Part shown: piece after piece, positions 21,205 through 57,660 of the stretch
Layout of the letters: each line of letters starts with the position of its first letter
Numbering within the stretch: position 1 is the stretch's first letter
Assembly: GCA_013153715.1 (NCBI GenBank)
Contig: JAADDW010000015.1
Location: 62,001 to 126,000, forward strand
DNA: 64,000 nt
Direction: 5' to 3'
From: Campylobacterota bacterium
GTDB lineage: Bacteria; Campylobacterota; Campylobacteria; Campylobacterales; Nitratiruptoraceae
Program-made: the position numbers and the translations under genes
Notes under the pieces: model-generated
Database searches by the model: none
Told to the model about the DNA's origin: nothing
What the model saw: only the letters and a program-made list of their open reading frames with translations

Positions 21205-21640
21205 CGAAATTTTCAAGCGCGATACCCCTACTTTGGGGGAGGGCGCTCTACTTCCTCCTTTCTTCAAATGTGATAAATATCCCTCTGGAAGCGACACCAG
21301 ACGGGGCAACTACCCCAGACCCAAACCATCCAGAATGGCGGCTCTCAGGCGATGAACCTTGTCGTCTGCGAGACTCTCGACCAAACCGCTCTCTGATGGA
21401 GGCGGGGCTCCTTCCATAGGGCAAGCATCTCCACTCCACCCCAGCGACCGTCAGATCGGACACTCCGCCAGCTCTCCCATCTTTGGGGGCCAATATCTCT
21501 ATTTCAAAATAGAGAGAGTGGGGAGTCTCTCCGCTCCTCGGTAGATCGAGGGGGATCGATGCCCATCCCTGACCATGCCTCCAAGTCCCCTTTGGGTGGG
21601 GGTTTGGCCTTGGAGGGAGACTACTCCCTCTCCGCTCCCC
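21205..21640 (-). repeat. Structured repeat element, copy 1 (upstream of nadD), tnpB/omega-RNA-like end
   Basis: The 582 bases between nadD and gapA hold no gene. From nadD outwards: a terminal hairpin with GCGC/GCGC ends (21217-21246), CTACTTCCTCCTTTCTTCA (21248-21266), a GGGG/CCCC stem (21303-21316), CCATCCAGAATGGCGGCT (21326-21343) then AGGCGATG, and an ATCGA/TCGAT stem (21545-21560) followed by GCCCATCCCTGAC (21561-21573). The same blocks occur in the same order at 57343-57660, where the stems have different sequences but still pair. It reads like the remnant 3' end of a TnpB-type element oriented on the minus strand; a host non-coding RNA is the alternative. Bases 21640-21757 show nothing specific. 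Confidence 0.6.
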
Positions 21641-21757
21641 TAGGGATGGCTCCCTCGGGTCGGCCCTCTGCGGCTGTTCCCATATCTCTCTCTCCCTGTG
21701 GCCCCCTTGCTCAATTTTCCCCCTCTCCCATCTCTACTCTTTTCCCCTGTTGTTGTG

Positions 21758-21763
21758 TATAAT
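21758..21763 (+). promoter_or_regulatory. -10 box of the gapA operon
   Basis: TATAAT in TTGTGTATAATACT, 24 bases before the gapA ATG. It gives a short leader containing the GAAGGGGG ribosome site. Confidence 0.7.
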
Positions 21764-21786
21764 ACTCCAAATCCGAAGGGGGTGCA

Positions 21787-22773
21787 ATGGTAGAGATCGC
21801 TATCAACGGATTTGGGAGAATTGGGCGGGCCCTCTTTCGAGAGGCCTTTCGGAGGGGAGATGTGCAGGTTGTGGCCATCAACGATCTCATGGCTCCGGAG
21901 ATGGCCGCCTATCTCCTCAAGTTCGACTCGGTCCACGGAGAGTTTGAGGGAGAGGTTATTCCGAGGGAGAGGAGCCTCATTGTGGAGGGGCGGGAGATCC
22001 GCTACAGCCGTTTCGACCACCCCTCTTCCATCGATCTCCCCCGAGTCGATCTGGTCATAGAGGCGACAGGCCGTTTCACCAACAGTCGGGAGAGCGAGGG
22101 CCACCTCCGCTACGGGGAGAAGGTGATCATTTCGGCTCCAGCCACCGATGAGACCCCAACCTATGTCTACGGCATCAACCACCTCGATTACAGGGGGGAG
22201 AGAATTATCTCCAACGCCTCCTGCACAACCAACGCCTTGGCCCCCATTGCCAAGGCCATCGATGAGGCCTTTGGAATAGAACGGGCCTTCATGACGACGA
22301 TCCATAGCTACACCATCGACCAGAACCTTCTGGACAGCGACCATCGGAGAGATCGGAGGAGAGCCCGGGCCGCCGCTGTCAATATTATCCCGACCACTAC
22401 GGGGGCGGCCAAGGCGATCTACAAAGTTCTCCCCTCCCTCAAGGGAAGATTTGATGGCCGGAGCGTCCGGGTCCCTGTGGCCGATGTGAGCCTCATGGAT
22501 CTAGCCATCGTCGTCAAGAGGGAGACGACCCTCCAAGAGGTGGATAGGGTCCTCCGCCAGGCCGCCTCCGCTCTCCCCCAGATATTGGCGATCGATGACT
22601 CCTATCGGGTCTCCAGCGACCTCCTCGGCTCTCCCTTTAGCTCCGTTGTGGCAGGCGATTTGACGCAGATCATCGGCAAAAACTTCATTAAAGTAATGTC
22701 TTGGTATGATAACGAATACGGTTACGCCAATAGGCTCTTGGATATGGCGAAGTTCATCAGTAAAGGAGAGTGA
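21787..22773 (+). CDS. gapA: Glyceraldehyde-3-phosphate dehydrogenase
   Basis: NAD(P)-binding GFGRIGR at residues 8-14 and the catalytic Cys146 in [12 protein letters not shown] identify phosphorylating GAPDH; 328 residues is normal. The substrate-binding region [13 protein letters not shown] is present. It is first in a coupled operon gapA-pgk-tpiA-fabI with its own promoter, the same order as Cj1403c-Cj1400c. In an autotrophic lineage it would mainly serve gluconeogenesis. Confidence 0.97.
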
Positions 22774-23969
22774 TGCATATTCGGTCGATCAAGGAGCTCG
22801 ATCTCGCCCCCGGAAGCAGTGTCTTCATTCGATGCGATTTCAATGTGCCGATGGACGAGTATGGAAATATCACCGACGATCGGAGGATTAGAGCGGCCCT
22901 TCCCACTATCCGCTACTGCCTCGATAACGATTGTAAGGTGGTCCTGGCCAGCCATCTCGGGAGGCCCAAAGGCTTCGATGAGCGGTACTCTTTGAGGCCT
23001 GTGGCCAAGAGGCTCCATAAGCTCTTGAAACAGGATGTGGTTATGGCCTCCGATGTGGTGGGCCCCGATGCCCAGGAGAAATTTGACCGATTGGAGCCGG
23101 GGGATGTAATGCTCCTGGAGAATCTCCGCTTCGAGCCCGGTGAGACGGCGGACGATATGGAATTTGCCAAAAAGTTGGCCCATTTTGGGGAGTTCTATGT
23201 CAACGACGCCTTTGGGGTCTGCCACAGGGCCCACGCATCGGTCCACGCCATTGCGACACTCTACGATGGAGATCACAAGGCGGCGGGCTTCCTCCTCCTC
23301 AAGGAGATCAAATATCTCTACAAGCTCTTGGAACACCCTGTCCGCCCCTTTCTGGCCATTATCGGAGGGAGCAAGGTCTCCAGCAAATTGGGAGCCCTGG
23401 TCAATCTCCTCCCCAAGGTGGATAAGATGATCATCGGAGGGGCCATGGCCTTCACCTTCCTCAAAGCCCTCGGGGAGGAGGTTGGGAAGAGTCTGGTGGA
23501 AGATGAGCTTATCGACGATGCCCGGAAGATTATGGAGGAGGCCCATGCCCGGGGGGTCAAATTCTATCTCCCTGTAGATTTTGTCGTCGCTCCGGAGTTG
23601 AGTGAAGATGCTCCGGTTAAATATGTGACCTATCAGGAGATACCTAAAGAGTGGATGGGGCTCGATATTGGTCTCGCCTCTACCAGACTCTTCCGGGAGG
23701 CTCTCAACGATGTCCAGACCATTATCTGGAACGGTCCCATGGGGGTCTTTGAGATAGATAAGTTTGCCCGGGGGAGTATGAAGCTGGCCAACTATGTGGC
23801 CGAGAGCTACGCCACCAAGATTATTGGAGGAGGGGATACGGCGAGCCTTGTGAGTAAGGCGGGAGTCGATGATGAGATGACCTTCATCTCCACGGGAGGT
23901 GGAGCCAGTCTGGAGCTTCTGGAAGGGAAGGAACTCCCCGGTATTAAGGTTCTGATGGTGGAGGATTGA
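22773..23969 (+). CDS. pgk: Phosphoglycerate kinase
   Basis: Interconverts 1,3-bisphosphoglycerate and 3-phosphoglycerate. Signatures: [20 protein letters not shown] at the N-terminus, [17 protein letters not shown], the hinge region and the C-terminal nucleotide loop [11 protein letters not shown] and [15 protein letters not shown]. The ATG at 22773 overlaps the gapA stop by one base; an immediately preceding GTG (22770) could also be used. tpiA starts two bases after the stop. Confidence 0.97.
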
Positions 23970-23970
23970 G

Positions 23971-25514
<1,544 letters not shown>

Positions 25515-25551
25515 ATTTGAGAAAAATTACTAAAATTTAAGAAAAGTTTGC

Positions 25552-25557
25552 TATAAT
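25552..25557 (+). promoter_or_regulatory. -10 box of the porin gene
   Basis: TATAAT in an AT-rich upstream region (periodic A/T tracts from 25515), 43 bases before the ATG. Its match to consensus and the AT-rich upstream DNA fit a very strong promoter. Confidence 0.7.
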
Positions 25558-25599
25558 TTTTCTTGTGAACATATAAATTACCAGAATAAAGGAGTAAAA

Positions 25600-26865
25600 A
25601 TGAGACTGGCAAAATTGAGTCTTGCTGCTATAGTCGCTCTCGGTGTTAGCGCTTTTGCAGATGTAGAAAATGTAAAATTTAGTGGAGATGCTAAACTCTT
25701 TTACGGGACAAATGATGCGGACCCCTATGACCTCTTTGATCAAGATAACTCCTATGGACAGGCAGGGGCCACTATTGCTATGAGCGCAGATCTCGCCGAC
25801 GGAGTTGCCGGTAAGATCTCTGTCACAGGTCTCTCTACACTGGGACTTGAAAACAACCTTGTCAGCGGTGTCTGGGCAGGAGCCCTCAGCAGAGATGGAG
25901 GCGTTGTAGCAACCTCTTCCCAGTGGTGGGTGAATGAGGCGTGGCTCGCCAAAACATTTGGAAATACAACTATCAAAATCGGTCGCCAAGAGCTCGATAC
26001 ACCCCTCGCTTTCACTGAGAAGTGGAACATTGCGGCCAATACATTTGATGCGGCTGTCATCTTGAACAACGACCTTCCTGAGACAACCCTCGTCGGTGCA
26101 TGGGTCGGTCGAGGAAACGGTGCTCCTGGCGGTCAAGTGGTCTATGGTATCAACAGCGGTAGCGATCCCTTCGATACCTACGGAAGTGCTATCGATGATG
26201 CCTACGGACTTCCAGGATTGGCAGATGGTGCCTACGCTGTGGCGGCTGTGACCAAATTGATTCCTATGACAACAGCCCAAGTATGGTACTACAATGTCTG
26301 TAATATTGCCGATGCATGGTGGGCCCAAGCCGATGTAGATCTCAAAGATGTCGTTCCTGGTGTCAACGGAGGTCTCCAGTTCGCCTACATCGAGCCAGCC
26401 GATAAGGTTGAGAAGGCTGTCGGTGCCAAACTTGACGAGTCTCAAGCGTGGGCTGTCAAATTGGGATACAACCTTGACGGTCTCAAATTGGCGGCGGCTT
26501 ACTCAGCTACCGATGAGGATGGAGTTGTCGTCATCGCCAACACTGCGACAGGTGCCCAAGTAGGTTCCCAGTCCAAACTCTACACTGAGGCGTGGTGGAA
26601 CTATGGCTATGTCGGTCTTCCAGATACCAACGCCTTCATGGTGAGTGCTGGATATGACCTTGAGGATGTGGCCAACTTCTACGCCCAGTACACAAATGCC
26701 GATACAGGAAAGAACAATAGGGATATGAGCGAGTTCGCACTCACTGCTAGTAAGTCCTTTGGAAATCTGGATACAACTCTCGCTTATATCTATACAGATG
26801 CCGACGATCAGAACGACGGAAGTAGCTACAACACTATTCAACTCTACCTCACATACAACTTCTAA
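25600..26865 (+). CDS. Major outer-membrane porin (MOMP/OprD-like, Campylobacterota type)
   Basis: A 421-residue beta-barrel protein with a signal peptide (MRLAKLSLAAIVALGVSAFA) and alternating beta strands ending in the aromatic C-terminus YLTYNF that the BAM complex recognises. FSGDAKLFYGTND and the segment WWVNEAWLAKTFGNTTIKIGRQ, which continues LDTP, are typical of this porin family. Codon usage is more AT-rich than in neighbouring genes, as expected for a very highly expressed gene. The ribosome site AAAGGAG lies 6 bases before the ATG. It stands alone with its own promoter, and a 7-bp hairpin follows the stop. Confidence 0.92.
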   Translation: MRLAKLSLAAIVALGVSAFADVENVKFSGDAKLFYGTNDADPYDLFDQDNSYGQAGATIAMSADLADGVAGKISVTGLSTLGLENNLVSGVWAGALSRDGGVVATSSQWWVNEAWLAKTFGNTTIKIGRQELDTPLAFTEKWNIAANTFDAAVILNNDLPETTLVGAWVGRGNGAPGGQVVYGINSGSDPFDTYGSAIDDAYGLPGLADGAYAVAAVTKLIPMTTAQVWYYNVCNIADAWWAQADVDLKDVVPGVNGGLQFAYIEPADKVEKAVGAKLDESQAWAVKLGYNLDGLKLAAAYSATDEDGVVVIANTATGAQVGSQSKLYTEAWWNYGYVGLPDTNAFMVSAGYDLEDVANFYAQYTNADTGKNNRDMSEFALTASKSFGNLDTTLAYIYTDADDQNDGSSYNTIQLYLTYNF

Positions 26866-26870
26866 TCCTC

Positions 26871-26889
26871 TCCGGGCTCCCCGCCCGGA
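26871..26889 (+). terminator. Hairpin after the porin gene
   Basis: TCCGGGC-tcccc-GCCCGGA is a perfect 7-bp GC-rich stem six bases after the porin stop. There is no U-tract, so it may protect the porin mRNA 3' end or attenuate read-through into the gene at 26902 rather than terminate fully. Confidence 0.45.
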
Positions 26890-26901
26890 CAAAGGTTCAC
26901 C

Positions 26902-27465
26902 ATGAGAAGAGCTCTACTTCCGCTCCTCCTCATCTCCCTCCTCTCTGCCGACTCCTATGTGACCCTTGACAATGGGAAGACGGTCCATCTCAAAGATGAT
27001 GGAACCTGGGAAGAGGTCAAGGTTATCAAGAAGGGGGAGAAGGAGATCGTCCTGAAGAATGACGGGACCTGGGAGGAGATCAATCCAAAAGATGTGGAGA
27101 GTGCCAATATCATCACCAACAAGGCCGATGAGAAGTTCAAGAGTACCCCCCTCGGAAAGGCCCTCCTCGGAAAGTGGGTGAGCGACGATGGAGATGAGTA
27201 TCTCATCTTCACTCCGACAACGGCCACCCTCAAAATCAGACAGGAGAGGGGGTTCCGTACATTTACGGGAAAGTGGCGGATCGAAAAGTTGGATGAGAAG
27301 GAGAGGAGTCTCACAGTCAATATAGCCGAAGGGGCCCGTCTCGGATTTGTCACCTTTGGAGGAGCAATGAGGAAGCTCCGTTTCAGCGAGGATCTCCAGA
27401 CCCTCTACGATGAGAGTGAGAAATTGAGCAATATGAGGGTCTATCGACTCCACAAGGTGAGATGA
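26902..27465 (+). CDS. Exported protein with tandem DGTWEE repeats (DUF3157-like)
   Basis: A 187-residue protein with a signal peptide (RRALLPLLLISLLSA). Two copies of the short motif V-L-(K/D)-x-x-G-(K)-x-V-x-L-K-D/N-DGTWEE lie at about residues 19-37 and 45-60. Such motifs occur in periplasmic proteins annotated as DUF3157. The rest (LGKWVSDDGDEYLIFTPTTATLKI) looks like a lipocalin-type beta domain that measures about 90 residues. Function is unknown. Its stop overlaps the permease start by 4 bases (ATGA). Confidence 0.7.
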   Translation: MRRALLPLLLISLLSADSYVTLDNGKTVHLKDDGTWEEVKVIKKGEKEIVLKNDGTWEEINPKDVESANIITNKADEKFKSTPLGKALLGKWVSDDGDEYLIFTPTTATLKIRQERGFRTFTGKWRIEKLDEKERSLTVNIAEGARLGFVTFGGAMRKLRFSEDLQTLYDESEKLSNMRVYRLHKVR

Positions 27466-28424
27466 GAAGAGTTATTTTGAGGAAGGTGGCCTACATTCTG
27501 GTCATGCTCTTCCTCATCTCCCTCATCTCCTTTTTCGCTATCCATCTAGCTCCCAACTCCTTTTTGAGTGCGGGGGAACTCAATCCCAATATCACTCCGG
27601 AGAACCTTCAACATCTCAAGGAGATCTACGGTCTCGACCGCCCCCTCTGGGAGCAGTATCTCTCCTGGCTCTGGGCGATGGTCCACTTCGACTTCGGTAT
27701 CAGCTTCGCCACAGGGAGGAGCGTTACCGACGAGATTCTCCAACGGCTCCCCATCACCCTCGGGATCAATATTACCTCTATGGTCATCACCTTCCTCCTC
27801 GCCCTCTACCTCGGGATTGAGGCGGCCCTCAAAGAGGAGAGCTGGCTGGACCGCTTTATCAGAAAGTGGGCCCTCCTCTCCTTCTCCATGCCCAGTTTCT
27901 ATCTTGCCCTCCTCCTCATCCTCTTCCTCAGTGTCCAGCTCCAGCTCTTCCCTATTAGCGGCCTCCACTCCCTGGAGCCCAAGGAGGGGATAGAGGCCTT
28001 TCTCGACCTCCTCTGGCACCTGGTTCTTCCCATCTTTGTCGTTGTCTTCGGAGGGTTCGGCACATTCTCCCAGTATATCCGCTCCCTCACCTTAGAGATT
28101 TTGAAGAGTAACTATATCCTCTTTGCCCGGGCCCGAGGAATTGAGGGGAGGGATCTGGTCAGGTACTACATTCTCCCCAATCTGAAACCTCCCCTCATTA
28201 CCGTCCTCGGACTCTCCCTTCCCGGAATTATTGGAGGGAGCGTCATTCTGGAGTCCATCTTCTCTATCAACGGTATGGGGCTCCTCTTCTATCAAGCGGC
28301 TCTGGCACGGGACTATCCGGTCATTATGGGAATTCTGATTATTACAGCCTTCCTCACCCTTTTGGGGAATGTGATTGCCGACCTGCTCCTCTACAAGTTG
28401 AACCCCTATGCCGCTTCGCCGTAG
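27462..28424 (+). CDS. DppB-type ABC transporter permease, solitary
   Basis: A 320-residue inner-membrane permease with about six transmembrane helices and the ABC-permease EAA-like loop LFARARGIEGRDLVRYYILPNLKPPLI. The N-terminus (RKVAYILVMLFLISLISFFAIHLAP) and the large first periplasmic loop are typical of DppB/OppB. No DppC, ATPase or binding-protein gene is adjacent, so any partners lie elsewhere. It is coupled to the exported DGTWEE protein, which might act with it. It is convergent with nusA, one base apart. Confidence 0.88.
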   Translation: MRRVILRKVAYILVMLFLISLISFFAIHLAPNSFLSAGELNPNITPENLQHLKEIYGLDRPLWEQYLSWLWAMVHFDFGISFATGRSVTDEILQRLPITLGINITSMVITFLLALYLGIEAALKEESWLDRFIRKWALLSFSMPSFYLALLLILFLSVQLQLFPISGLHSLEPKEGIEAFLDLLWHLVLPIFVVVFGGFGTFSQYIRSLTLEILKSNYILFARARGIEGRDLVRYYILPNLKPPLITVLGLSLPGIIGGSVILESIFSINGMGLLFYQAALARDYPVIMGILIITAFLTLLGNVIADLLLYKLNPYAASP

Positions 28425-28425
28425 A

Positions 28426-29532
28426 TCACTCCTTGAAGAGGTCGGCAAGGGTAATTTTGGGCTCCTCCTTCTTGACCTCTCCGCTCTCGATGGCCTCCCC
28501 TTTCTCCACTAACTCTATCTCGAAACCTGTCAGCATGGAGGCGAGGCGGATATTGATTCCTCCCTTCCCGATGGCCTTCGATTTCTGATCGGGAGGGAGG
28601 GTGACAATGGCCTTGTCTCCATCGATTTTGACACTGGTGATGATGGCCGGGGAGAGGCTCCGGGCGACAAATATCTCCGGAATGGGAGAGTACTCGATGC
28701 AGTCGATATTCTCCCCCTTCAGCTCCTTACTGACCGCATTGATTCGGACCCCTTTGACCCCGACACAGGCTCCGACAGGGTCTATTTTGGGGCTGTGGGA
28801 GGTGACGGCCACCTTGGCCCGCTCTCCGGGGATCCGTGCCACCTTCTCCACAGTGACCAGACCATCTTTGATCTCGGGGACCTCCAGTTTCAGGAGCTCC
28901 TCAAGGAATTTGGGAGTTGTTCGGGAGAGTTCGAGGTAGAAACCGTGGACTCTATCTACATTGACCCGTCGGAGAATTGCCTTGACCACATCGGCCGGCT
29001 TGAAACTCTCCCCCTTGATCCTGTATCTCTTGGGGAGGATCCCCTTGACCTCATCGATGTCCAGATAGGTATTCTCTTCGGAGTCGATCCGGGTCACCGT
29101 CCCGCTCACAATGGTTCCCACCTTCCTCTTGTACTTCTCGAAGAGTTGGTTCTCGATGAGCCTCTGAATATGGTACTCTATCTCGTTGTGGAGGCGCATG
29201 GCCGCCGTCCGTCCGAAACTCTCAAGGTCCACAGGGTAGCGAAGCTCATCTCCTATCTCTATCTCTCCATCTATCTCTCTGGCTTCTCCTATGGAGATGT
29301 ATCGGTCTGGATCCTCTTTGGCCCTCTCATCGTCATCATCTACAACGAGAATCTTCTGATAGAGTTCGATCCCTTTGGTCTGGGGATTGATGAGGGCTTC
29401 AAACTCTTTCTCCTCTCCGTGGAGCGATTGGGCCGTTCTGACGAAAGCTCTCTTGATCGCATCTTCTACCTGCTCTGTTGGGAGACCCTTCTCGTGGGCT
29501 ATGGAGTCAATAATATCTACGATTTTCTCCAT
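28426..29532 (-). CDS. nusA: Transcription termination/antitermination factor NusA
   Basis: A 368-residue RNA polymerase-binding factor: N-terminal domain (MEKIVDIIDSIAHEKGL), an S1 domain (VGTIVSGTVTRID...VKGILPKRYRIKGE), and KH domains with DPVGACVGVKGVRINAVSKEL and KAIGKGGINIRLAS. The start at 29532 is set by the family N-terminus; an upstream extension of 23 codons has no ribosome site. The E. coli C-terminal repeats are absent, as usual in Campylobacterota. Confidence 0.96.
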   Translation of the reverse strand: MEKIVDIIDSIAHEKGLPTEQVEDAIKRAFVRTAQSLHGEEKEFEALINPQTKGIELYQKILVVDDDDERAKEDPDRYISIGEAREIDGEIEIGDELRYPVDLESFGRTAAMRLHNEIEYHIQRLIENQLFEKYKRKVGTIVSGTVTRIDSEENTYLDIDEVKGILPKRYRIKGESFKPADVVKAILRRVNVDRVHGFYLELSRTTPKFLEELLKLEVPEIKDGLVTVEKVARIPGERAKVAVTSHSPKIDPVGACVGVKGVRINAVSKELKGENIDCIEYSPIPEIFVARSLSPAIITSVKIDGDKAIVTLPPDQKSKAIGKGGINIRLASMLTGFEIELVEKGEAIESGEVKKEEPKITLADLFKE

Positions 29533-29590
29533 TGTTGTAAAGTCCTTTAGGTGGGGTTCGCTACTCTTTTGGAGGCTTTGGAGCATCTCT

Positions 29591-29596
29591 ATTATA
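29591..29596 (-). promoter_or_regulatory. -10 box of nusA
   Basis: TATAAT on the minus strand in GACTATAATAGAG, 59 bases before the nusA ATG. It is back to back with the promoter at 29643. Confidence 0.6.
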
Positions 29597-29642
29597 GTCA
29601 AATTTATCTTTATTTAAGATAAAGGTTGGAAACTTTTTTTGA

Positions 29643-29648
29643 TATAAT
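29643..29648 (+). promoter_or_regulatory. -10 box of the HP0268-miaB operon
   Basis: TATAAT in TTTGATATAATTGC after a run of seven T. Transcription from here would begin near 29655 and leave about 205 bases of leader. Confidence 0.65.
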
Positions 29649-29654
29649 TGCAGA

Positions 29655-29859
29655 TTACCAAAACCCGCCATAAAGCCTATCCCTTCGGGTGTAGGGAGAT
29701 GGGCGATGGAGGATTGGATAGGGTCGGAAGAACCGACCGTGGCCCAGGCGGCACGGGAGTGTGAGAGCCGCCATCTGGGGCCAGAGATCCCGTTACGGGG
29801 AATACCAAGGAGAGGTGTCTGATGAGGAGACTCTCGACCTCCAGAGTGAAAGGGGAGTG
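29655..29859 (+). ncRNA. Structured 5' leader of the HP0268-miaB operon
   Basis: About 205 untranslated bases with at least four helices. CTATCC (29677-29682) pairs with GGATAG (29716-29721). GGTCGG-aagaa-CCGACC is at 29722-29738. TGGCCC (29740-29745) pairs with GGGCCA (29778-29783) around an inner GGCGGC/GCCGCC stem (29747-29772). CCCG-tta-CGGG is at 29789-29799. There is no U-tract, so it is more likely a leader than an independent terminated RNA. It does not match SRP RNA, tmRNA, RNase P or a riboswitch class I can recognise. Confidence 0.55.
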
Positions 29860-30105
29860 ATGGAATTGAAACTGGCACGCTCAGAGTTGAATGGGGAGCC
29901 AAAGAGTATCTCCCTCCAGGAGATAGAGGAAGCCGTGAAGAGAGAGGGGAATAAGATCTTCTACTTCGACAGGGAGAACTCCCATAAGGATCTGATGAAT
30001 TTGGTTGACTATTTCGAGGAGCGGGGATATAGCGTCTATTTTCGGGAGGTCCGTTACGGACTGGATGAGAATGACTACATCTACGAGGTCCACATTCTCC
30101 AATGA
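29860..30105 (+). CDS. HP0268-family small protein
   Basis: An 81-residue protein matching Helicobacter pylori HP0268, for which nuclease activity has been reported. Shared features are the central [20 protein letters not shown] and the C-terminal [12 protein letters not shown]. The frame is open for 33 codons upstream, but the ATG at 29860 has AAAGGGGAG before it and matches the family N-terminus (MELKLARSE). The stop overlaps the miaB start by 4 bases, the order found in H. pylori (HP0268-HP0269). Confidence 0.88.
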
Positions 30106-32016: not shown

Positions 32017-32023
32017 GGGTGCC

Positions 32024-45740: not shown

Positions 45741-45896
45741 CGTAGCTTTCTATAGTCTAACATCTGTAACTTAACCTTCACTAAATCTCTCTCCGAGAAG
45801 GGAAGGGGAGATCCAAATTTCTCTCAAGAGTTGATATAAAAAGAGATTTCCTTCAATATGACTGATAACTAGCTTGCAAAATCTTGATAAGGAAGA

Positions 45897-49500: not shown

Positions 49501-50795
49501 TATCTATCCTTCAGGCGCTCTTCTATAGACTGGGCGTGGGCTTGGAGCCCCTCTACATAGGCGAGGGTAGCCGCTACCCCTCCAATCTCCTCTACTGCTT
49601 CGGGGCTGAAGGAGATGATGGAGCTCTTCTTGAGAAAGTGCTCTGTGGAGAGGGGGCTGTAGAAGCGGGCCGTTCCCCCTGTGGGGAGTGTGTGGTTGGG
49701 GCCTGCAATATAGTCTCCGATGGGTTCTGGGGTAAATTCCCCGAGGAAGATGGCCCCTGCATCTCTGATCTTCGGGAGGAGTTGGAAAGGGTCTGCCGTC
49801 ATGATCTCCAGATGTTCCGGAGCTATTCTATTCATCAGCTCGATCCCCTCCTCCATTGAGGAGGTCACAATGATAGCCCCCCGCTCTTCGATGGAGCGGG
49901 TTGCGATCTCCCGGCGCTCCAGCCCCTGGAGGAGGGTGGAGAGCTCTCTCTGGACCGCCTGGGCCAGCTCCCGACTGGGGGTGATGAGAATGGAGCTCGC
50001 CATCTCGTCATGTTCCGCCTGGCTCAAGAGATCGATGGCTACATAGCGGGGATTTGCCCCTCCATCTGCCAGAATACCGATCTCGCTGGGTCCGGCGATC
50101 ATGTCGATATTGACCTCTCCATAGACCAATTTCTTGGCTGTGGCGACGAAGATATTCCCCGGTCCTGTAATCACATCGACCTTGGGGATTGTCTCTGTGC
50201 CGAAGGCGAGGGCCCCGATGGCGCTGGCTCCCCCCACTTTGTAGACCTGTTGGAAGCCGCAGAGGTGGCAGGCGGCCAGGAGGAGGGGGTTGGGCTCATT
50301 CTCCGGTGTAGGGGTTGTGACGACAATCTCTTTGACACCGGCGACGATGGCCGGAATTCCGTTCATCAGGAGACTGCTGGGATAGGCCGCTTTGCCGCCC
50401 GGAATGTAGAGCCCCGCCCTCTCGACGGGGGTTACCTTCTGTCCCAGAATGGTCCCGTTCTCTTCACAGTCGATCCACGATTTGGGGAGCTGTTTCCGGT
50501 GGTAGGCCTCAATTCTCTCATAGGCTGTGTGGAGGGCCTCCCTGACCTGTGGATCTAGCTCCCTGTATGCCCGTTCCATCTCTCCAGGATCGATGAGGAG
50601 TTCCTCGCTCCTCCGGGGCTCCCATCTGTCAAATTGGGCGATATGGGCCATGAGGGCACGATCCCCCTCCTCCCTGATCTCCTTCAGGATCTTCTGGACA
50701 ACGGGGGTCACCTCCTCCATATCCATCTGGGCCCGGTCGAGAATCCTTTGAAACTCCCTGTCGAACCCGGGATCTTCTGTCGCTAGTACTCTCAT
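49500..50795 (-). CDS. hisD: Histidinol dehydrogenase
   Basis: A 431-residue zinc enzyme for the last two steps of histidine synthesis. Signatures: PVERAGLYIPGGKAAYPSS, VDVITGPGNIFVATAKK, DMIAGPSEIGILAD, LLSQAEHDEMASSILIT and IAGPNHTLPTGGTARF. The zinc ligands in the QAEHD and NRIAPEHLE regions are present. It leads the operon hisD-PiT-SplB-eIF2B-like and follows the PLP enzyme gene by one base. Confidence 0.97.
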   Translation of the reverse strand: MRVLATEDPGFDREFQRILDRAQMDMEEVTPVVQKILKEIREEGDRALMAHIAQFDRWEPRRSEELLIDPGEMERAYRELDPQVREALHTAYERIEAYHRKQLPKSWIDCEENGTILGQKVTPVERAGLYIPGGKAAYPSSLLMNGIPAIVAGVKEIVVTTPTPENEPNPLLLAACHLCGFQQVYKVGGASAIGALAFGTETIPKVDVITGPGNIFVATAKKLVYGEVNIDMIAGPSEIGILADGGANPRYVAIDLLSQAEHDEMASSILITPSRELAQAVQRELSTLLQGLERREIATRSIEERGAIIVTSSMEEGIELMNRIAPEHLEIMTADPFQLLPKIRDAGAIFLGEFTPEPIGDYIAGPNHTLPTGGTARFYSPLSTEHFLKKSSIISFSPEAVEEIGGVAATLAYVEGLQAHAQSIEERLKDR

Positions 50796-50796
50796 C

Positions 50797-51681
50797 TTAC
50801 TCCCCGATTATGGTTTTGGCGATTGTACCAAACTTTGCCTTGTATCTTGCTATCATAGTCTCGTTACCCAGGAGTCCCCCCTGGTGGATGTAGAGGAGCT
50901 TCTCACCAAAGAGGTTGTGGGCCTTGAGGGTGATGAAGCCGACCGGATCGTAGAGGAGATCGAACTCTATCCCGCTCCCCCCGACTATCTCTCCCCATAT
51001 CTCCCATAATTCTCGGGAGAGCCGTCCAAAGGGATACCGCCTGGGTGGTTCCAGAATGGTTGGATGGCAGGAGCTGTCCGGCTCCAAGGTGGAGAACTGC
51101 CTCTGGAGATACTCCCTCCCTCCGACACAGGGGACCGTGAGGACCCGATACTCGGGGAGATATTTCTGGAGAAAGAGGGCTGTCGTCCCTGTCCCCGATG
51201 GGAGGAAGATGGTGATCTCCCTCCCCCTTGCCCACTGCCGAATTTCCTGGGCCAGAAGAGCAATTCCCAAGGCCGCCTCCTCTGTCCGCCCCCCTTCCGG
51301 TAGGATGAGAGAGGAGCCGTGGAGAATTGTGCGGGAGAGGAGGTTCCGCTCCTCGATGGGAAACTCCTCGATGGGGCGGAGTTCCATGCCCAGCTCCAGG
51401 GCCCCTTTGAGATTACCTGCCGGATTTTCCACGGCCCGGCGGTCGAAGCGGGCGTAGTAGATGAAGGACCACCTCCGCTTCCGGGCAATGTGGGCGAGGC
51501 TGTACATGGCGTTGGAGTGGAGGGAGCCGTAGGAGATAAGGGTATCGATGGGGAGTGGAGTGTGGAGGAGAAAGTGGAGTTTTCTCCCCTTGTTTCCACC
51601 GATGTGGGGGTCGAGAAGATCGTCCCTCTTCAACCAGAAGGGATAGGGTTTTGAGATGAACTCTACAGGTGTCGGCTCCAT
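50797..51681 (-). CDS. PLP-dependent enzyme, ACC deaminase/D-cysteine desulfhydrase family
   Basis: A 294-residue fold-type II PLP enzyme. KRDDLLDPHIGGNKGRKL near residue 18 contains the PLP lysine, and FLPSGTGTTALFLQ near residue 160 binds the phosphate. Family members deaminate ACC or desulfhydrate D-cysteine; the specificity is not clear. The upstream region contains no strong ribosome site, so the mRNA may be nearly leaderless. One base separates its stop from the hisD start. Confidence 0.85.
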   Translation of the reverse strand: MEPTPVEFISKPYPFWLKRDDLLDPHIGGNKGRKLHFLLHTPLPIDTLISYGSLHSNAMYSLAHIARKRRWSFIYYARFDRRAVENPAGNLKGALELGMELRPIEEFPIEERNLLSRTILHGSSLILPEGGRTEEAALGIALLAQEIRQWARGREITIFLPSGTGTTALFLQKYLPEYRVLTVPCVGGREYLQRQFSTLEPDSSCHPTILEPPRRYPFGRLSRELWEIWGEIVGGSGIEFDLLYDPVGFITLKAHNLFGEKLLYIHQGGLLGNETMIARYKAKFGTIAKTIIGE

Positions 51682-51770
51682 AGGAGAGAGTATAGTCTCC
51701 TCCGGTTACAAATTGGCGACATGGTGGAGATGGAGAGGGTAAAATCGGTTTCGGAGATGCCCCCTTCCTC

Positions 51771-51792
51771 CCCCTCCGGAGAGTGGGAGGGG
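51771..51792 (-). terminator. Hairpin directly after fba
   Basis: On the minus strand CCCCTCC-cactctcc-GGAGGGG, a perfect 7-bp stem within a few bases of the fba stop. No U-tract follows, so termination is only suggested. The rest of the 110-base gap to the PLP enzyme shows nothing. Confidence 0.35.
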
Positions 51793-52869
51793 TCAGTTGA
51801 CATTGAGACTACGGAGATCCCTGTAGGCTTGGAGGACCCGTTCCTTCATACTCTTCTCCCCTTCTCGAAGCCATTTACGGGGATCGTAGTATTTCTTGTT
51901 GGGTTTATCCTCACCCTCTGGGTTGCCTATCTGGCTCTGGAGATAGTCGTGGTACCGTTCGATATACCCTTTGACGCCGCTCCAGAAGGCCCACTGGGTG
52001 TCGGTATCGATATTCATCTTGACGACGCCGTAGTCGATGGCTTCGTGGATCTTCTCTAACTCGCTTCCACTCCCTCCATGGAAGACGAAACTGACGGGCT
52101 TCTCCTTCTCGATACCGAGGTGGGTTCGGATATACTCCTGGGAGTTTTTGAGGATAATGGGTTCCAGTCTGACGCTCCCCGGTTTATAGACCCCGTGGAC
52201 ATTGCCGAAGCTGGCGGCAATGGTGAAGTAGGGACTGATCTTGCTGAGCCGCTGGTAGGCGAGGGCCACCTCTTCGGGCTGGGTATAGAGCTTGGCGTTC
52301 TCTATCCCTGTGTTGTCGACCCCATCTTCTTCCCCCCCTGTCACTCCCAGCTCTATCTCTAGGTGCATGCCCAGGGGAGCCATCCGCTTCAGATACTCTT
52401 CGCAGGTGGATAGGTTCTCCTCCAGAGGCTCCTCGGAGAGATCGAGCATATGGGAGCTAAAGAGGGGACGGCCATGGAGTCTGAAATACTCCTCCCCAGC
52501 GGCCAGGAGTCCATCGATCCACGGGAGGAGTTTCCGTGCGGCGTGGTCGGTGTGGAGTACTACACTCACCCCGTAGGCCTCGGCTAGAATATGGATATGT
52601 TTGGCGGCGGAGATGGCTCCGAGTATCGCCCCCTTCTGATCGCTGTTGTCCAACCCTTTACCGGCCCAGAAGTGGGCTCCCCCGTTGCTCAGCTGGATAA
52701 TGATGGGAGAGTTGGCCTCCCGTGCCGCCTCCATGACGGCGTTGGCCGAGTTGGTCCCGACCACATTGATGGCGGGAAGGGCGAAATTATGCTCCTTGGC
52801 ATACTCGTAGAGTCGGAGAAGATCGTCACCCCAGACCACTCCGGGCTTGAGGAATTGAGAGACCCCCAT
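51793..52869 (-). CDS. fba: Fructose-bisphosphate aldolase, class II
   Basis: A 358-residue zinc aldolase. HTDHAARK near residue 104 holds the catalytic Asp and a zinc His, LEIELGVTGGEEDGVDNT near residue 172 the conserved Glu, and FVFHGGSGS and VVKMNIDTDTQWA the remaining phosphate and zinc sites. It works with the gapA-pgk-tpiA enzymes, chiefly in gluconeogenesis. It follows the PEB4-like gene on the same strand, the same arrangement as peb4-fba in C. jejuni and HP0175-HP0176. Confidence 0.97.
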   Translation of the reverse strand: MGVSQFLKPGVVWGDDLLRLYEYAKEHNFALPAINVVGTNSANAVMEAAREANSPIIIQLSNGGAHFWAGKGLDNSDQKGAILGAISAAKHIHILAEAYGVSVVLHTDHAARKLLPWIDGLLAAGEEYFRLHGRPLFSSHMLDLSEEPLEENLSTCEEYLKRMAPLGMHLEIELGVTGGEEDGVDNTGIENAKLYTQPEEVALAYQRLSKISPYFTIAASFGNVHGVYKPGSVRLEPIILKNSQEYIRTHLGIEKEKPVSFVFHGGSGSELEKIHEAIDYGVVKMNIDTDTQWAFWSGVKGYIERYHDYLQSQIGNPEGEDKPNKKYYDPRKWLREGEKSMKERVLQAYRDLRSLNVN

Positions 52870-52878
52870 GGAACCCCC

Positions 52879-53697
52879 TTAGAGCATCTTTTTGATCTTG
52901 GCGTGTCTCTTCAACTTTTCAGCCTCTTTTCTCACCCTCTCTTGAAACTTCTCCATGTGGAGCTGTTGTTTGATCCGCTCCTTCACCTTCTCGAAAGGGA
53001 TGGTGGAGGCCGGTTTCTTCTCCTCTACATAGATCACATGGTAGCCAAACTGGGTCTTGACAGGCTCTTTGGTGAACTGGCCCGGTCGGAGGGAGAAGGC
53101 GGCATCGCTGAAGGGTTTGACCATCTGTCCCCGTCGGAAGAAGCCGAGATCTCCTCCCCTCTTTCCGCTGGGGCCGACAGATTTGGTCTTGGCGAGCTCA
53201 ATAAATTTCTCCTTCAGTTGGGATTTGGGAGTCTTCTCTAGCTCTTTGATAATCTCCTTGGCTTCCGATTCGCTCTTGACCAGAATGTGGCGGGCGTGGA
53301 CCATCTCTGGCTGTTTGAACTGCTCTTTATGTTTATTGTAGTAGGATTTGGCTTCGCTGTCGGTGATGGTAATCGCCTCGTACTGCTTTCGCATCCAGGT
53401 TTCAAGGGCAAGGTCTCCCTTCAACTTCTGGAGAGCCTCTTTGAACTCTTTGGTATGCTCAATTCCACTCTTGATCGCCTTCTCTTTGAGGAGCTCCCTC
53501 TCGATGGCCTGTTCCACAACTTTCTCTTTGATCTGGGGAGGGAGCTGTTCAAAGCGCATACCGCTCTGGGCCAAGATGGGAGCTATATCATCTGTGGTGA
53601 TCTTCTTCCCATTCACCTCGGCAATAACCTGGGCGGCCACAGCACTCCCTGCCGTGAGAGCGAGGGCTACCAAACCTCCGACGATGTAGTGCTTCAT
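52879..53697 (-). CDS. PEB4/Cbf2-like periplasmic peptidyl-prolyl isomerase
   Basis: A 272-residue parvulin-type chaperone. A signal peptide (YIVGGLVALALTAGSAVA) is followed by a SurA-like N-terminal domain (EVNGKKITTDDIAPIL, residues 25-125) and a parvulin domain (MVHARHILVKSESEAKEII ... GGDLGFFRRGQMVKPFSDAAFSL ... GYHVIYVEEKK, about 130-230). It assists outer-membrane protein folding. It precedes fba by 9 bases. Confidence 0.93.
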   Translation of the reverse strand: MKHYIVGGLVALALTAGSAVAAQVIAEVNGKKITTDDIAPILAQSGMRFEQLPPQIKEKVVEQAIERELLKEKAIKSGIEHTKEFKEALQKLKGDLALETWMRKQYEAITITDSEAKSYYNKHKEQFKQPEMVHARHILVKSESEAKEIIKELEKTPKSQLKEKFIELAKTKSVGPSGKRGGDLGFFRRGQMVKPFSDAAFSLRPGQFTKEPVKTQFGYHVIYVEEKKPASTIPFEKVKERIKQQLHMEKFQERVRKEAEKLKRHAKIKKML

Positions 53698-53750
53698 TCA
53701 CCTATCCTTTTTCAGAAATTCGCCAAATTATAGCCAAAAAAGTTAACCAG

Positions 53751-54464
53751 TTACTTCATGTTATGATAGACATTCTGGACATCGTCATTCTCCTCCAGGG
53801 TCTCGATGAGCCGCTCCACCTTTTCGGCAGTTCCATCGTCGACATCGATCTCGTTGGAGGCCACAAGGCCGACGGTACTCTCCAAAATCTTGGCTCCCGC
53901 CTTTTCCACCGCCTCCAGGACCTTATTGAAATCTGCAGGATCGCTCTCGATGACCAGAACCTCATCGAACTCCAAAATATCGCTGGCTCCCCCCTCCAGG
54001 GCGGCCTCCATAATCTCATCCTCCCTCTCGTCCCGCTCTACGGTGATGACCCCCTTCTTCTCGAACATCCAGGAGACACTCCCGCTGGTACCGAGGCTCC
54101 CTCCATGTTTGGTGAAGGCGTGGCGGACTGCGGCAACGGTCCTGTTCTTGTTGTCGGTGAGGCATTCAACCATAACGGCGACCCCGCCGGGGCCGTACCC
54201 CTCGTAGACCACCTCCTCATATTTGACTCCGGGGAGGTTTCCACTAGCCTTATCGATGGCCCGCTTAATATTTTCCTGGGGCATGGAGACCGCCTTGGCC
54301 CTCTCGATGGCGAGACGGAGGGCCGCATTGGTATCTGGGTTGGGTCCCCCGTCCCGAACGGCTGTCATAATATCTCGGACGGCCCTGGTAAAGAGTTTCC
54401 CCTTTTTGGCGTCCTCTTTGGCTTTAATATGTTTGACTTTTGACCATTTATTGTGACCTGCCAT
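53751..54464 (-). CDS. YebC/PmpR-family protein
   Basis: A 237-residue protein with the family start [18 protein letters not shown] and conserved [11 protein letters not shown] and [19 protein letters not shown]. YebC proteins act as transcription regulators or, in more recent work, as factors relieving ribosome stalling. The frame is open far upstream through nth antisense, but the MAGHNKW start at 54464 is universal in the family. It lies between nth and the PEB4-like gene, which adjoin in C. jejuni. Confidence 0.95.
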
Positions 54465-54515
54465 GGGTGCTCCTGAAGAGAATTTGGCTAGAATTATAAC
54501 AAAAAAAGGGTTGGC

Positions 54516-55154
54516 ATGGTCTGGCGCACCCCCCAAGAGATCGAAGAGATCAAGAGACGCTTCCTCCGCCACTATCCCCAAGCCCGGACAGAGTTGGACT
54601 ACCGCAATCTCTACGAGCTTCTGGTGGCTGTAATCCTCTCGGCCCAGTGTACCGACAAACGGGTCAATCTCATCACTCCCAAGCTCTTTGAGAGGTACCC
54701 CGATGTAGCCTCCCTGGCCAGAGCGGAGAGGAGGGAGGTAGAGGAGCTCATCAGGAGCTGTTCCTTCTTCAAGAACAAGGCCAAATATCTCATCGAAATG
54801 GCCCAGATGGTTATGGAGCGGTATGGCGGGGAGATCCCTGGCGATGAGCGGGAGCTCATGAAGCTCCCCGGAGTGGGACGGAAGAGTGCCCATGTGGTCA
54901 TGATCGAATATTTCGGCAAGAATCTCATGGCTGTCGATACCCATGTCTTTCGGGTCGCCCACCGGTTGGGATTGAGCGATTCCAAAACCCCCAAAGGGAC
55001 AGAGGAGGACCTGGTCATGGCTTTCAGGAGCGACCTCCCCAGACTCCACCAGGCTATGGTTCTCTTTGGCCGCTATATCTGCACGGCCCGAACCCCTAAG
55101 TGCTCCGACTGCTTTCTCTCCGATCTCTGTGAGAGTGATGAGAAGGGAGAGTGA
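54516..55154 (+). CDS. nth: Endonuclease III
   Basis: A 212-residue base-excision glycosylase/AP lyase. The helix-hairpin-helix [12 protein letters not shown] contains catalytic Lys123, and Asp141 is in [11 protein letters not shown]. The 4Fe-4S ligands are Cys189, Cys196, Cys199 and Cys205 (C-x6-C-x2-C-x5-C). It is divergent from yebC, and its last 59 bases are antisense to the 3' end of the histidine kinase gene. Confidence 0.96.
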
Positions 55155-56286
55155 AGGGTATGCGGAAGATATTGACCCCATGGGAGTGGGTGTAGTGGAG
55201 CTCCAGTCGGTGTTTGGAGAGAATCTGCTCCACGATGAGGAGGCCGAGACCGCTCCCTCGAGTTCCCCCCTTTCCTAGAGGTTCCCCGTAGCTGACTATC
55301 TCTATCACTCCCCCTCTGGAGAGGATTTTGATGGGGAAGGCCGTCGAGTAGCGGAGACCGTTGTCGATAAGGTTCTTCAAGGCGATGGAGAGGAGCTCAC
55401 GATCTCCCCTGATTGTGAAGGGTTCGCTCTCAATCTCTATCTTCTCCTCATCGTCAATACAGCACCTCTCCAGGGCCGAGAGGAGGAGGGTTTCGCTCTC
55501 CATCTCCTCCTCCTTGAGATGGGCGATCGTGATTGTGTGGAGATCCAGAACCCTTTTTGTCAGCCTCTCGATCTGATCAATGGCCCTTTTGAGGGAGGAG
55601 AGATCCCTCCGTTCCAGGGCGAAACGGCTCTTGGCCAAGGGGGTTTTGAGCTCATGACCAATGAAGCGGAGGAGGTGTTCCCTTTCGAGAATACTCTCCT
55701 CTATCTTCTCGGCCATGAGATTGAAACTCTCCGCCACCCTCTCCAGCTCTGCACCTCCTCGGGGTTCGACTCTCGTTGTGTACTCCCCTCGGGCAAATTG
55801 GCGGATGGAGCGGGAGAGCTCCTTGAGGGGGTGGAGGAGTGTGACGACCGAGAGGTAGAGGAGAATGAGAATGAGGGCGTCCAAGATGATGAGGAGATTG
55901 ATGGTGAGGTACTCCCTGTGGAAGCTTCCCTGACTCTTGTCGTAGAGGGAGATTGTTCTCCCGAGGTAGGTGAGGAGAAGGGAGAGATGGTGGTCTCTCC
56001 TCTCGATGATTGAGATATGGCCGAAGAGGATTTTTCTCTGGAGGATGGTCTCCCCCTCTTCCCTCCCCTCCTCCATCTCAAATCCTAACTCCCGTGCCCT
56101 CTCTCTCAAGAGGTTGTGGCGGTCCATGGCTAAGAGGGGGAGGAGTTCTCGGGCTGTCACGAGGTAGCGGTTGATTATGAGCTCCCTATTCTTTCCCTGG
56201 TAGAGCTGTTCCAGATAGAGACCGAGCCCCACCATGAGGGAGAGTCCCAGGAGGAAGAGGAGACTCACCTTTGTGAAGATGCTCAT
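55096..56286 (-). CDS. Sensor histidine kinase
   Basis: A 396-residue kinase. Two transmembrane helices (about 5-27 and 128-150) bracket a periplasmic sensor of roughly 100 residues. HAMP follows ([22 protein letters not shown]), then DHp with His211 in [15 protein letters not shown], and an ATP domain with [12 protein letters not shown] and [13 protein letters not shown]. The sensor contains several His ([15 protein letters not shown]) but no obvious family. It forms an operon with the response regulator (4-base overlap) and the CpxP-like gene; ArsS- or CpxA-like in type. The last about 20 residues lie over nth. Confidence 0.92.
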
Positions 56287-56951
56287 TGGTCGGGGGGAGG
56301 GGAGATGAATTTGTACCCTATTCCCCAGACCGACTTTATATATCGGGGGTTTCTGGGGTCGTCACCGATCTTCTGACGGATATTGCTGATGTGCATATCG
56401 ACAGTTCTGTTCCTCGTATCTGGAGGGAGGGAGGTGGAGTGGATCAGCTGTTCCCGGGAGAGGGGCTTCCCCCTGTTCTCTGCGAGGAGTGTGAAGAGTT
56501 CAAACTCTGTCGGTGTGAAGTCGATGGGATAGCCATCTATGGAGACCCTCCTGTTCTCCTGATCGATGGTAAACTCCCCTACCTGGATGGTTTCCCTCTT
56601 CCTCCGACGGAGGATGGCCTCTACCCGAAGGACCAGCTCCCTCGGTTCGTAGGGTTTAGCCAGATAGTCCCAGGCTCCCAGTTCAAAACCGATAATCTTG
56701 TTCCCTATATCTCCCCGAGCTGTGGAGATGATGACGGGGATCTCCTTGGAGAGCCTCTTGAGGAAGTCGAATCCATCCAGCTTGGGGAGGGTGAGATCCA
56801 ATATGATGAGGTCGAACTCCCTCTCTTCCACAAGTTTGAGGGCCTCTTCGGGATCGGCGGTCCCCTCTGCCGAGTAGCCGAACCTCTCCAGATACTCCCT
56901 GATCATCTCCTCCATCTCCCGATCATCCTCAATAATGAGAATTCTACTCAA
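56283..56951 (-). CDS. OmpR-family response regulator
   Basis: A 222-residue regulator: receiver domain with EDD at 8-10, phospho-acceptor Asp52 and Lys99 (AKPYEP), then a winged-helix domain (TPTEFELFTLLAENRGKPLSREQLI ... DMHISNIRQKIGDDPRNPRYIKSVWGIGYKF). The start is taken as TTG at 56951, which overlaps the CpxP-like stop by 8 bases and has GGAGTGGGAAG before it; the frame is open a few codons more. It probably controls this operon in response to envelope stress. Confidence 0.93.
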   Translation of the reverse strand: MSRILIIEDDREMEEMIREYLERFGYSAEGTADPEEALKLVEEREFDLIILDLTLPKLDGFDFLKRLSKEIPVIISTARGDIGNKIIGFELGAWDYLAKPYEPRELVLRVEAILRRRKRETIQVGEFTIDQENRRVSIDGYPIDFTPTEFELFTLLAENRGKPLSREQLIHSTSLPPDTRNRTVDMHISNIRQKIGDDPRNPRYIKSVWGIGYKFISPPPDQ

Positions 56952-57342
56952 CTTCCCACTCCTTGTAGTAACGGGCAAATTTGCGGCGCTGTTCCGGAGT
57001 CAGAATAGAGTGGAGCGACGCAAAAAAGTCCCTCTCCAGGGCCATCTTCAACTGTTGAAGGGAGCAGTAGAGCCTCTCATACTCCTCCCTGTCAAACTCC
57101 CTCTTCTGGAAGAGCTGACGGAGCCGCTCCTCTAGCTCCCTCTCTCTCCTGTAGAGATGGGTCAGCTGTTTCCGCCGCTGGAGAAGGAGTTCCCTAATCC
57201 TCTCCTTCTGGTTTGGAGAGAGGTGGAGGAAGGAGAGATCGTAGGGAATATGGTCGTGGTCGTCGGAGTACTCCTCCCCATACTCCCCTTCACTTCCAAA
57301 GAGGGAGAGGATGAGGAGGAGAGTGAGAAAAACCCCTCTCAT
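56944..57342 (-). CDS. CpxP/Spy-like periplasmic protein
   Basis: A 132-residue exported helical protein: signal peptide (MRGVFLTLLLILSLFG), a His/Asp/Glu-rich stretch near residues 20-33 (EEYSDDHDHIPYD), and a helical hairpin rich in Arg/Glu ending in SILTPEQRRKFARYY, the LTxxQ motif of the Spy/CpxP family. It probably inhibits the kinase or acts as chaperone; the His/Asp stretch could bind metal. It begins an operon with the regulator and kinase. Its ATG lies directly at the end of the repeat element 57343-57660, whose terminal hairpin ends 11 bases upstream. Confidence 0.8.
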   Translation of the reverse strand: MRGVFLTLLLILSLFGSEGEYGEEYSDDHDHIPYDLSFLHLSPNQKERIRELLLQRRKQLTHLYRRERELEERLRQLFQKREFDREEYERLYCSLQQLKMALERDFFASLHSILTPEQRRKFARYYKEWEVE

Positions 57343-57660
57343 CGCTCTTTTCCCACCGATCTTCCAGGCGTGGGAGATCGGTGCTACTTCCTCCTTTCTT
57401 CACAATGTGATAGATATGCCTCTGGAGGCCAACGGCCTCAAACTCAAGCCATCCAAAATGGTGGCTATCCAGCAAGGCGATGGGCCTTACTGTGTGCCGA
57501 AGGAGGGCTCTAGATCCGCCTAGCTTAAGACTATCTCCTCAACGCCGACACACCTCTTGGTCACCTATTTTTAACAGGCTCTCTAGGGGTACCTCAACTA
57601 CCCAGTGGAGTTGAGGCCTATCCCTGACTACCCCCGCCTTTGGAGATGGAGTATTGCCCT
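57343..57660 (-). repeat. Structured repeat element, copy 2 (upstream of cpxP-like gene), tnpB/omega-RNA-like end
   Basis: The 316-base gap between cytochrome b and the cpxP-like gene carries the same ordered blocks as 21205-21640. A perfect 9-bp terminal hairpin CACCGATCT/AGATCGGTG (57354-57383) comes first. Then come CTACTTCCTCCTTTCTTCA (57384-57402, identical to copy 1), a GAGGCC-aac-GGCCTC stem (57425-57439), CCATCCAAAATGGTGGCT (57449-57466) and AGGCGATG, and a CTCAAC/GTTGAG stem (57593-57615) with GCCTATCCCTGAC (57616-57628). Helices differ in sequence from copy 1 but keep pairing. No protein-coding gene is evident. Confidence 0.6.

Follow-up and report, generated by a model that had tools for sequence, protein, structure and literature searches.

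Decayed TnpB-type transposon copies beside start codons in a Nitratiruptor genome, and their left ends as putative ribosome-binding leaders

Introduction

The window analysed here is a 64,000-nucleotide stretch of contig JAADDW010000015.1 (assembly GCA_013153715.1, positions 62,001 to 126,000 of the forward strand), taken from a 1.5-Mb Nitratiruptor (Campylobacterota) genome with a completeness of 98%. Two gene-free gaps in this window, at 21.2 and 57.3 kb, are decayed members of a multi-copy family of TnpB-type transposable elements; their identity, target and decayed state can be read directly. We consider it likely that the gaps are dead, internally deleted, TnpB-only copies of the IS200/IS605 type, inserted between the Shine-Dalgarno sequence (SD) and the ATG of a gene, and that their left end (LE) has been kept as a replacement leader carrying a ribosome-binding site (RBS). 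Its position, its sequence and its retention suggest that the LE works as an RBS and that this function is why the host has kept it.

A sequence-only reading had described the two gaps as homologous copies of a selected RNA, made of shared blocks joined by compensatory stems, and had suggested the omega-RNA and right end of a TnpB-type element. The shared blocks it named are present where it placed them, and one of them, a 19-mer, occurs twice at zero mismatches (when up to three mismatches are tolerated, shuffled sequence averages 0.05 matches, and none of 100 shuffles had two). Yet these blocks are codons and transposon ends of decayed TnpB-type (OrfB_IS605) family members rather than parts of an independent RNA. 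The same reading held that no tnpB remained, which is wrong, as the 5′ codons of tnpB are still legible at 57416-57523.

The two elements in the window

Each element adjoins the start codon of a minus-strand gene; the parts are as follows.

21202-21204, minus strand: start codon (ATGA context) of a nadD-like gene (20617-21204, an open reading frame (ORF) of 195 aa), with the insertion point directly upstream
21205-21266, minus strand: LE of element 1, a putative nadD 5′ leader; read outward it has AAAGGAGG (21254-21261), a hairpin, and TGAAAATTTCG-ATG
21248-21266, plus strand: identical 19-mer CTACTTCCTCCTTTCTTCA inside the LE of element 1
21280-21355, plus strand: decayed tnpB 5′ end, codons ending in KPSRMAALRR and a stop, frame +1, set against the intact N-terminus RNRLKLKPSKMQAI; start of the ghost approximate
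21522-21609, plus strand: decayed right end (RE) and omega-RNA 3′ region of element 1, from alignment with intact right ends; outer border approximate
57340-57342, minus strand: start codon of a small Metal_resist/LTXXQ gene (56944-57342; PF13801, E 4.5e-9)
57343-57402, minus strand: LE of element 2, read outward, with hairpin CACCGATC/GATCGGTG (57354-57361 with 57376-57383)
57416-57523, plus strand: tnpB ghost MPLEANGLKLKPSKMVAIQQGDGPYCVPKEGSRSA and a stop, compared with intact TnpB
57573-57658, plus strand: decayed RE and omega-RNA 3′ region of element 2, from alignment with intact right ends; outer border approximate

The nadD-like protein carries a CTP_transf_like domain (PF01467, E 2.2e-18). 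In element 1 the LE hairpin AGCGC/GCGCT pairs 21216-21220 with 21243-21247, and in element 2 AAAGGAGG is the antisense of the 19-mer at 57384-57402. Judged against intact relatives, the three shared blocks fall into different parts of the element: the 19-mer lies in the LE, the second block (CCATCCARAATGGYGGCT) is the tnpB-start codons KPSKMVA (MPLEANGLKLKPSKMVA from 57416 onward), and the third lies in the RE, within the omega-RNA region. The earlier assignment to a TnpB-type element holds, whereas taking the gaps for an omega-RNA and right end fails for most of both copies: they are mainly left end and tnpB ghosts, and the omega-RNA part has decayed. That reading also missed the chief regularity, an LE that adjoins a start codon and has an outward SD. 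The RE of element 1 matches an RE model weakly (E 0.36), and that of element 2 gives no match to it at E≤0.5.

A multi-copy family and its TnpB protein

Further homologues exist both in the window genome and in relatives, and same-genus genomes hold the intact tnpB. The 21.2-kb element has long copies elsewhere in its own genome that are 93% and 84% identical, plus several weaker ones on other contigs. We count 12 clear copies in this genome (L001-L007, L014, L015, L017, L022 and L193), of which L001 and L004 are the window elements at 21.2 and 57.3 kb and L017 is recognised by its left end alone; L018 and L027, which resemble left ends less closely and lie at ORF starts, were excluded. In the short copies L006 and L015 the tnpB start is fused to the TnpB C-terminus (SNGLHGELKSLYATR). 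Two side observations concern the same genome: L048 (G000:C11:240-359) is a lone internal tnpB fragment covering about residues 64-122 and containing a stop, and a near-perfect inverted repeat, TCTCTATTTCAAAATAGAGA, lies within the long copies L001-L003 (window 21496-21515).

Behind the same left end, the same-genus genome G007 encodes an intact 437-aa TnpB with OrfB_IS605 (PF01385, 67.7 bits, cut-off 30.5) and Cas12f1-like_TNB (PF07282, 42.5 bits, cut-off 26.3) domains, and solved chains named OrfB or Cas12f match it weakly (best E 7.6e-6). The finding of this intact tnpB led us to drop an initial idea, that the plus strand of the element was an independent non-coding RNA driven by a promoter of its own. 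TnpB matches at E≤1e-3 occur in 5 of 16 genus genomes, window genome included, and reach 84-100% identity in three (G007, G008 and G013); the window genome, 98% complete, has three relic matches and no intact TnpB. Beyond the genus, a 59% relative is present in a Nautiliaceae genome, and G401, from a different family of the order, has one at 56%. In a class-wide sample of 397 genomes, drawn from a larger group, two pass E≤1e-80: G401, whose element is new and not at a start codon, and G008, already known.

The protein retains the RuvC-I and RuvC-III aspartates (IDFGIDN, NADVN), while the D-E-D triad is incomplete: compared with three solved OrfB-named chains, RuvC-II reads GD and not ED. Clades of TnpB with a rearranged RuvC-II have been described, one member of which is active (Nety 2023, PMC10278001), so inactivity should not be assumed here.

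Target site and placement at start codons

Intact elements run from an LE hairpin through a promoter-like box, tnpB and the omega-RNA region to an RE hairpin ending in GTTGAC. In element orientation (a slash marks the border), the left side reads TCAT/C-AATCCTTTCAGCG-hairpin-CGCCTACTTCCTCCTTTC-...-TATAAT...-ATG (tnpB), and the right side ...CCTCCAAGCCTCCCCGTTTACGGGGAGGTAGTTGAC/flank. The terminus GTTGAC is found in 11 of 13 aligned relatives; TCAT adjoins all 15 left ends read in relatives, and TTCAT adjoins 12 of them. Hairpins near both ends and a fixed short motif on the 5′ side are what IS200/IS605-type elements display. Filled and empty junctions could be compared at four loci:

hdh: filled in L041; empty in L110, L111, L113 and L115
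ferredoxin gene: filled in L059 and L046; empty in L125 and L126
purN: filled in L047; empty in L138 and L139
carbon-nitrogen hydrolase gene: filled in L057 and L054; empty in L112

At the ferredoxin and hydrolase loci the left and right ends are on separate contigs, and the flanking sequence was used to match them. Insertion is directly 3′ of TCAT, with no target duplication. Set against the empty sites, the element stands directly 5′ of the ATG, and the native SD is displaced to its RE side. On the other strand TCAT reads ATGA, and most of the copies read therefore sit exactly between the SD and the ATG of an opposite-strand gene.

Among relatives, 13 of the 15 copies with a readable LE abut the start codon of an opposite-strand gene; the exceptions are L058 (by eye inside another element) and L269 (behind the 3′ end of a gene). 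Start codons are also abutted by 8 of the 12 copies in the window genome, the host genes being nadD, a small ORF, Metal_resist, GGDEF, a transporter-like ORF, pyrB, ppk2 and a methyltransferase (nadD and Metal_resist named from Pfam, the others from reading the translations). The remaining four are L003 (beside a transfer RNA (tRNA)), L005 (beside the transfer-messenger RNA (tmRNA)), L022 and L193. The relatives are the better sample, because they were found through TnpB or DNA similarity and not through the LE motif.

Is such placement simply a consequence of the target? The copies could be plain decayed IS200/IS605-type relics, with a TCAT target, purging elsewhere and an incidental AAGGAGG, a view we hold to be unlikely. 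In its favour, the presence of TCAT beside 15/15 left ends in relatives makes start codons followed by A natural targets. Against it stands the crude chance of hitting such sites, which is about 24%: with genes called roughly across the window, 13 TCAT sites fall at start codons and 41 others outside coding sequence (13/54). At that share, which is drawn from the window and not from the relatives' genomes, 13/15 has p=6e-7 and 8/12 has p=0.002.

As further observations on placement, the three TnpB-less copies L064, L065 and L066 of G008 are all at start codons. Upstream of ppk2 in G004, L086 has a AAGGAGGAAGTAGGGCaataaGCCC leader, and the same gene carries the relic L015 in the window genome; the two are possibly one old shared insertion.

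The left end as a putative outward leader

In the direction of the host gene, a typical LE has AAGAAAGGAGG or ACGAAAGGAGG, then AAGTAG, a hairpin, and TGAAA...ATG. AAGGAG is invariant in all 17 aligned left ends; L006, L014 and L017, whose left ends are longer or odder, stand outside this alignment and have the motif too. The sequence AGAAAGGAGG is the complement of what we take to be the 10-nucleotide tail at the 3′ end of 16S ribosomal RNA. The duplex of this distal SD with the tail has a computed energy of -12.5 to -15.6 kcal/mol in all 11 leaders computed, compared to -5.5 to -11.7 kcal/mol for eight native SDs at empty sites and -1.6 to -9.4 kcal/mol for the tip-proximal region of the same 11 leaders. 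In five copies, L041, L045, L059, L065 and L073 (Nautiliaceae), the tip itself reads AAGGA or AAAGGA(G), followed after 3-6 nucleotides by the ATG. In the window genome AAGGAGG is present in 8/8 copies at starts and in 1/4 elsewhere (L003, in shifted register; one-sided Fisher 0.018), several of the eight having been found through this very motif.

The element inserts 3′ of TCAT and splits a gene's SD from its ATG. In the mechanism we propose, the LE would then supply a replacement RBS, namely the outward AAGAAAGGAGG and a hairpin that possibly draws it nearer to the start codon; in some copies a second SD at the tip (e.g. AAAGGATTG-ATG) may contribute. Such a replacement could let the element sit before nadD, pyrB, purN or acpS. 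Subsequently tnpB and the RE would decay while the host retains the LE as a leader. Such retention would account for the good state of the 19-mer, which has been preserved better than any other part of the two window copies. The wider proposal, that the family is a portable RBS leader handing genes (even likely essential ones) a new RBS and domesticated as a 5′ leader across several species of the genus, has in our estimate about an even chance.

On the plain-relic explanation, CCTCCTTTC would instead be a left-end transposition or promoter element. The box adjoins the TATAAT-like sequence of tnpB, it is retained in intact mobile copies, where host selection need not act, and AAGGAGG is common in the genome (within the window it occurs 31 times on the plus strand and 18 times on the minus strand).

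Alternatively, the leader might be a cis-regulatory RNA, whose hairpin hides or exposes the SD; the element would have spread it, and regulation of the host genes would be the reason for its persistence. This we regard as improbable. Predicted folds do leave the distal SD mainly paired in 5 of 11 leaders and mainly unpaired in others, where a long hairpin frees it, and the consensus of the leader alignment pairs the SD with a hairpin arm. On the other hand, none of the five pairs of that covariance structure has a double change, and we therefore claim no conserved leader fold. Moreover, the host genes are unrelated, the hairpins vary widely in sequence and length, and a search of the whole window at the Rfam gathering threshold returned no match. 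A lax Rfam search of seven loci of the window genome returned the neighbouring tmRNA (and permuted tmRNA over it), a tRNA and low-scoring microRNA and long non-coding RNA families.

Retention of the left end after decay

As elements decay, the RE is lost before the LE. Models of the LE (R1) and RE (R2), each of 75 positions at 0.753 bits per position, were searched against the same 16 genomes at E≤1e-3; 13 hits at contig ends were dropped (7 LE, 6 RE), and a site was called paired if the partner model matched nearby at E≤0.5. There were at least 35 R1 and at least 21 R2 matches, in G000, G004 (R1 only), G007, G008 and G013. At least 14 sites were paired each way, and among the candidates scored at least 14 were LE-only and at least one was RE-only (L022, not at a start codon). 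An ORF start is abutted by 11 of the 14 LE-only sites.

This ratio of 14 to 1 speaks against plain relics, as do two further results. First, a native SD is weaker behind a retained left end: in one LE-only relic its duplex has -1.5 kcal/mol, against -5.9 kcal/mol at the empty site. Empty sites were available for comparison with five LE-only relics; where the empty site has AAAGGA, L206 reads AAAAGA, and before a ppiD-like gene of G004 the native SD is lost and the LE follows the native -10-like sequence. Second, a relic before a helicase-like gene, common to G008 and G013 and absent in G011, has evolved more slowly than its flank, with 65/70 identical positions in the leader (93%), 47/71 in the adjoining noncoding sequence (66%) and 42/60 at third codon positions.

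RNA structure at the right end

The compensatory stems first proposed are not supported. The stem GGGG/CCCC against GAGGCC/GGCCTC lies, on a frame reading, in decayed tnpB codons. For the stem ATCGA/TCGAT against CTCAAC/GTTGAG, 16 family members show no double change; four of its six pairs are invariant, and one pair is unpaired in 15 of 16. A 12-sequence alignment that includes the window copies (8 own-genome right ends, very diverged) yields four consensus pairs at -0.17 kcal/mol.

In the intact family, the tnpB 3′ end and RE fold well (z -4.6). A five-helix structure for the RE and omega-RNA has 90.5% of cells paired in 16 members, and its covariation is 0.140; shuffles averaged 0.105, none of the 500 being as high, and slid versions did not go beyond 0.067. 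There is thus moderate support for an omega-RNA structure conserved by covariation in the family, and not in the two window copies. By homology to known TnpB systems, the RE transcript would act as an omega-RNA that binds and guides TnpB.

Could the window copies be orphan omega-RNAs, still acting in trans with a TnpB? TnpB-less copies in G008 (L064-L066) do keep the box, the omega-RNA region and the RE, and short forms exist in the window genome (L006, L015). Nevertheless, the window copies have lost most helices and no intact TnpB was found in their nearly complete genome; we judge this possibility very remote. As a separate observation, L064-L066 retain the left end as well, and L064 and L066 have an extra hairpin-like insert between the promoter-like box and the omega-RNA region.

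Evidence on the other side

Returning to the replacement leader, a number of points weigh against it or against the evidence brought for it. In the 11 leaders the strong outward SD sits about 47 to 84 nucleotides 5′ of the ATG and is mainly paired in 5/11 (unpaired probability ≤0.20, predicted ensemble), and 6/11 have a weak SD near the tip (-1.6 to -1.8 kcal/mol); translation from LE leaders is an inference from sequence, and the RBS a predicted one. As for placement, 2/15 relatives' and 4/12 own copies lie away from start codons, finding some own copies through the LE motif has biased the tally for the window genome, and a harsher 60% null gives 13/15 a probability of 0.03. As for retention, 150 first-look candidates per genome were scored, so the R1 and R2 counts are lower bounds; 3 of the 14 LE-only sites (L003, L004, L007) retain a decayed RE visible by eye or alignment; and the conservation of the shared relic rests on one species pair. 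At the RE, 8/39 pairs have double changes, a number that 56/500 shuffles reach and that rises to 10 when the structure is slid by -1 column. Finally, the canonical RuvC-II glutamate is glycine in 5/5 aligned homologues, and a PF01797 search of 16 genus genomes, in which the four strong loci were read closely, found no cognate TnpA.

Comparison with known systems and significance

Internally deleted copies that keep both ends, such as L001-L003 (84-93% identical), resemble the non-autonomous IS200/IS605 derivatives presumably of the PATE/MITE type (palindrome-associated and miniature inverted-repeat transposable elements), whereas here the LE alone often remains at gene starts. HEARO/IscB omega-RNA elements insert next to ATGA or GTGA, a target that resembles the ATGA found here on one strand; in contrast, our protein is TnpB and not IscB, and the window has no Rfam match. 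Insertion sequences are well known for bringing promoters. If our reading is true, a transposon that places an RBS precisely at the start codon would gain tolerance by another route, one connecting the target motif of an RNA-guided nuclease element with translation initiation. The empty site, the full element and the left-end relic would then form natural before/after sets to follow RBS replacement. There is also a caution: in genomes of this kind, a conserved intergenic block beside a start codon can be the end of a transposon and not a regulatory RNA.

The closest comparison is ISDra2, an IS200/IS605 family element of Deinococcus radiodurans with TnpB and a right-end element RNA (reRNA) (Karvelis 2021, PMC8612924). 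ISDra2 shares with our family partly palindromic ends, duplication-free insertion 3′ of a short motif, TnpB, and a guide RNA (putative in our family) from the tnpB 3′ end and RE. The target here is TCAT/TTCAT rather than TTGAT, and no tnpA was found. Start-codon placement, an LE with an outward SD and a RuvC-II glutamate not at its usual place also set our family apart. AmaTnpB, among 59 TnpB orthologs, has the target-adjacent motif TCAC (Nety 2023, PMC10278001), like ours a four-base TCAY-type motif; the 'Derived' TnpBs of that study share the RuvC-III motif NADXN, and it contains RuvC-II rearranged clades. The available text of that paper contains neither 'start codon' nor 'TCAT' (0 occurrences). 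Among the literature matches listed, titles and beginnings of abstracts describe no start-codon insertion by TnpB elements, a weak negative with most subscription papers outside the coverage.

Other elements in the genus

PF01797 (Y1 TnpA) has no match in the window genome and matches at 10 places in 5 of 16 genus genomes. The four strong loci, which are those read closely, belong to a different, differently ended element, and the Y1 TnpA genes of G008 and G013 were rejected as partners on account of those ends. A different IS605-type element with a Y1 TnpA is represented by L153, L154, L158 and L161 (G008, G013); its left end follows TTTTTTAC in 3/4 of these copies (by eye), and the TCAT-type copy L058 seemingly lies inserted in an element of this type. 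A further, distant TnpB lineage, 34-43% identical and with different ends, is represented by L043, L061, L062, L063, L068 and L069 (G008, G011) and is multi-copy in G008.

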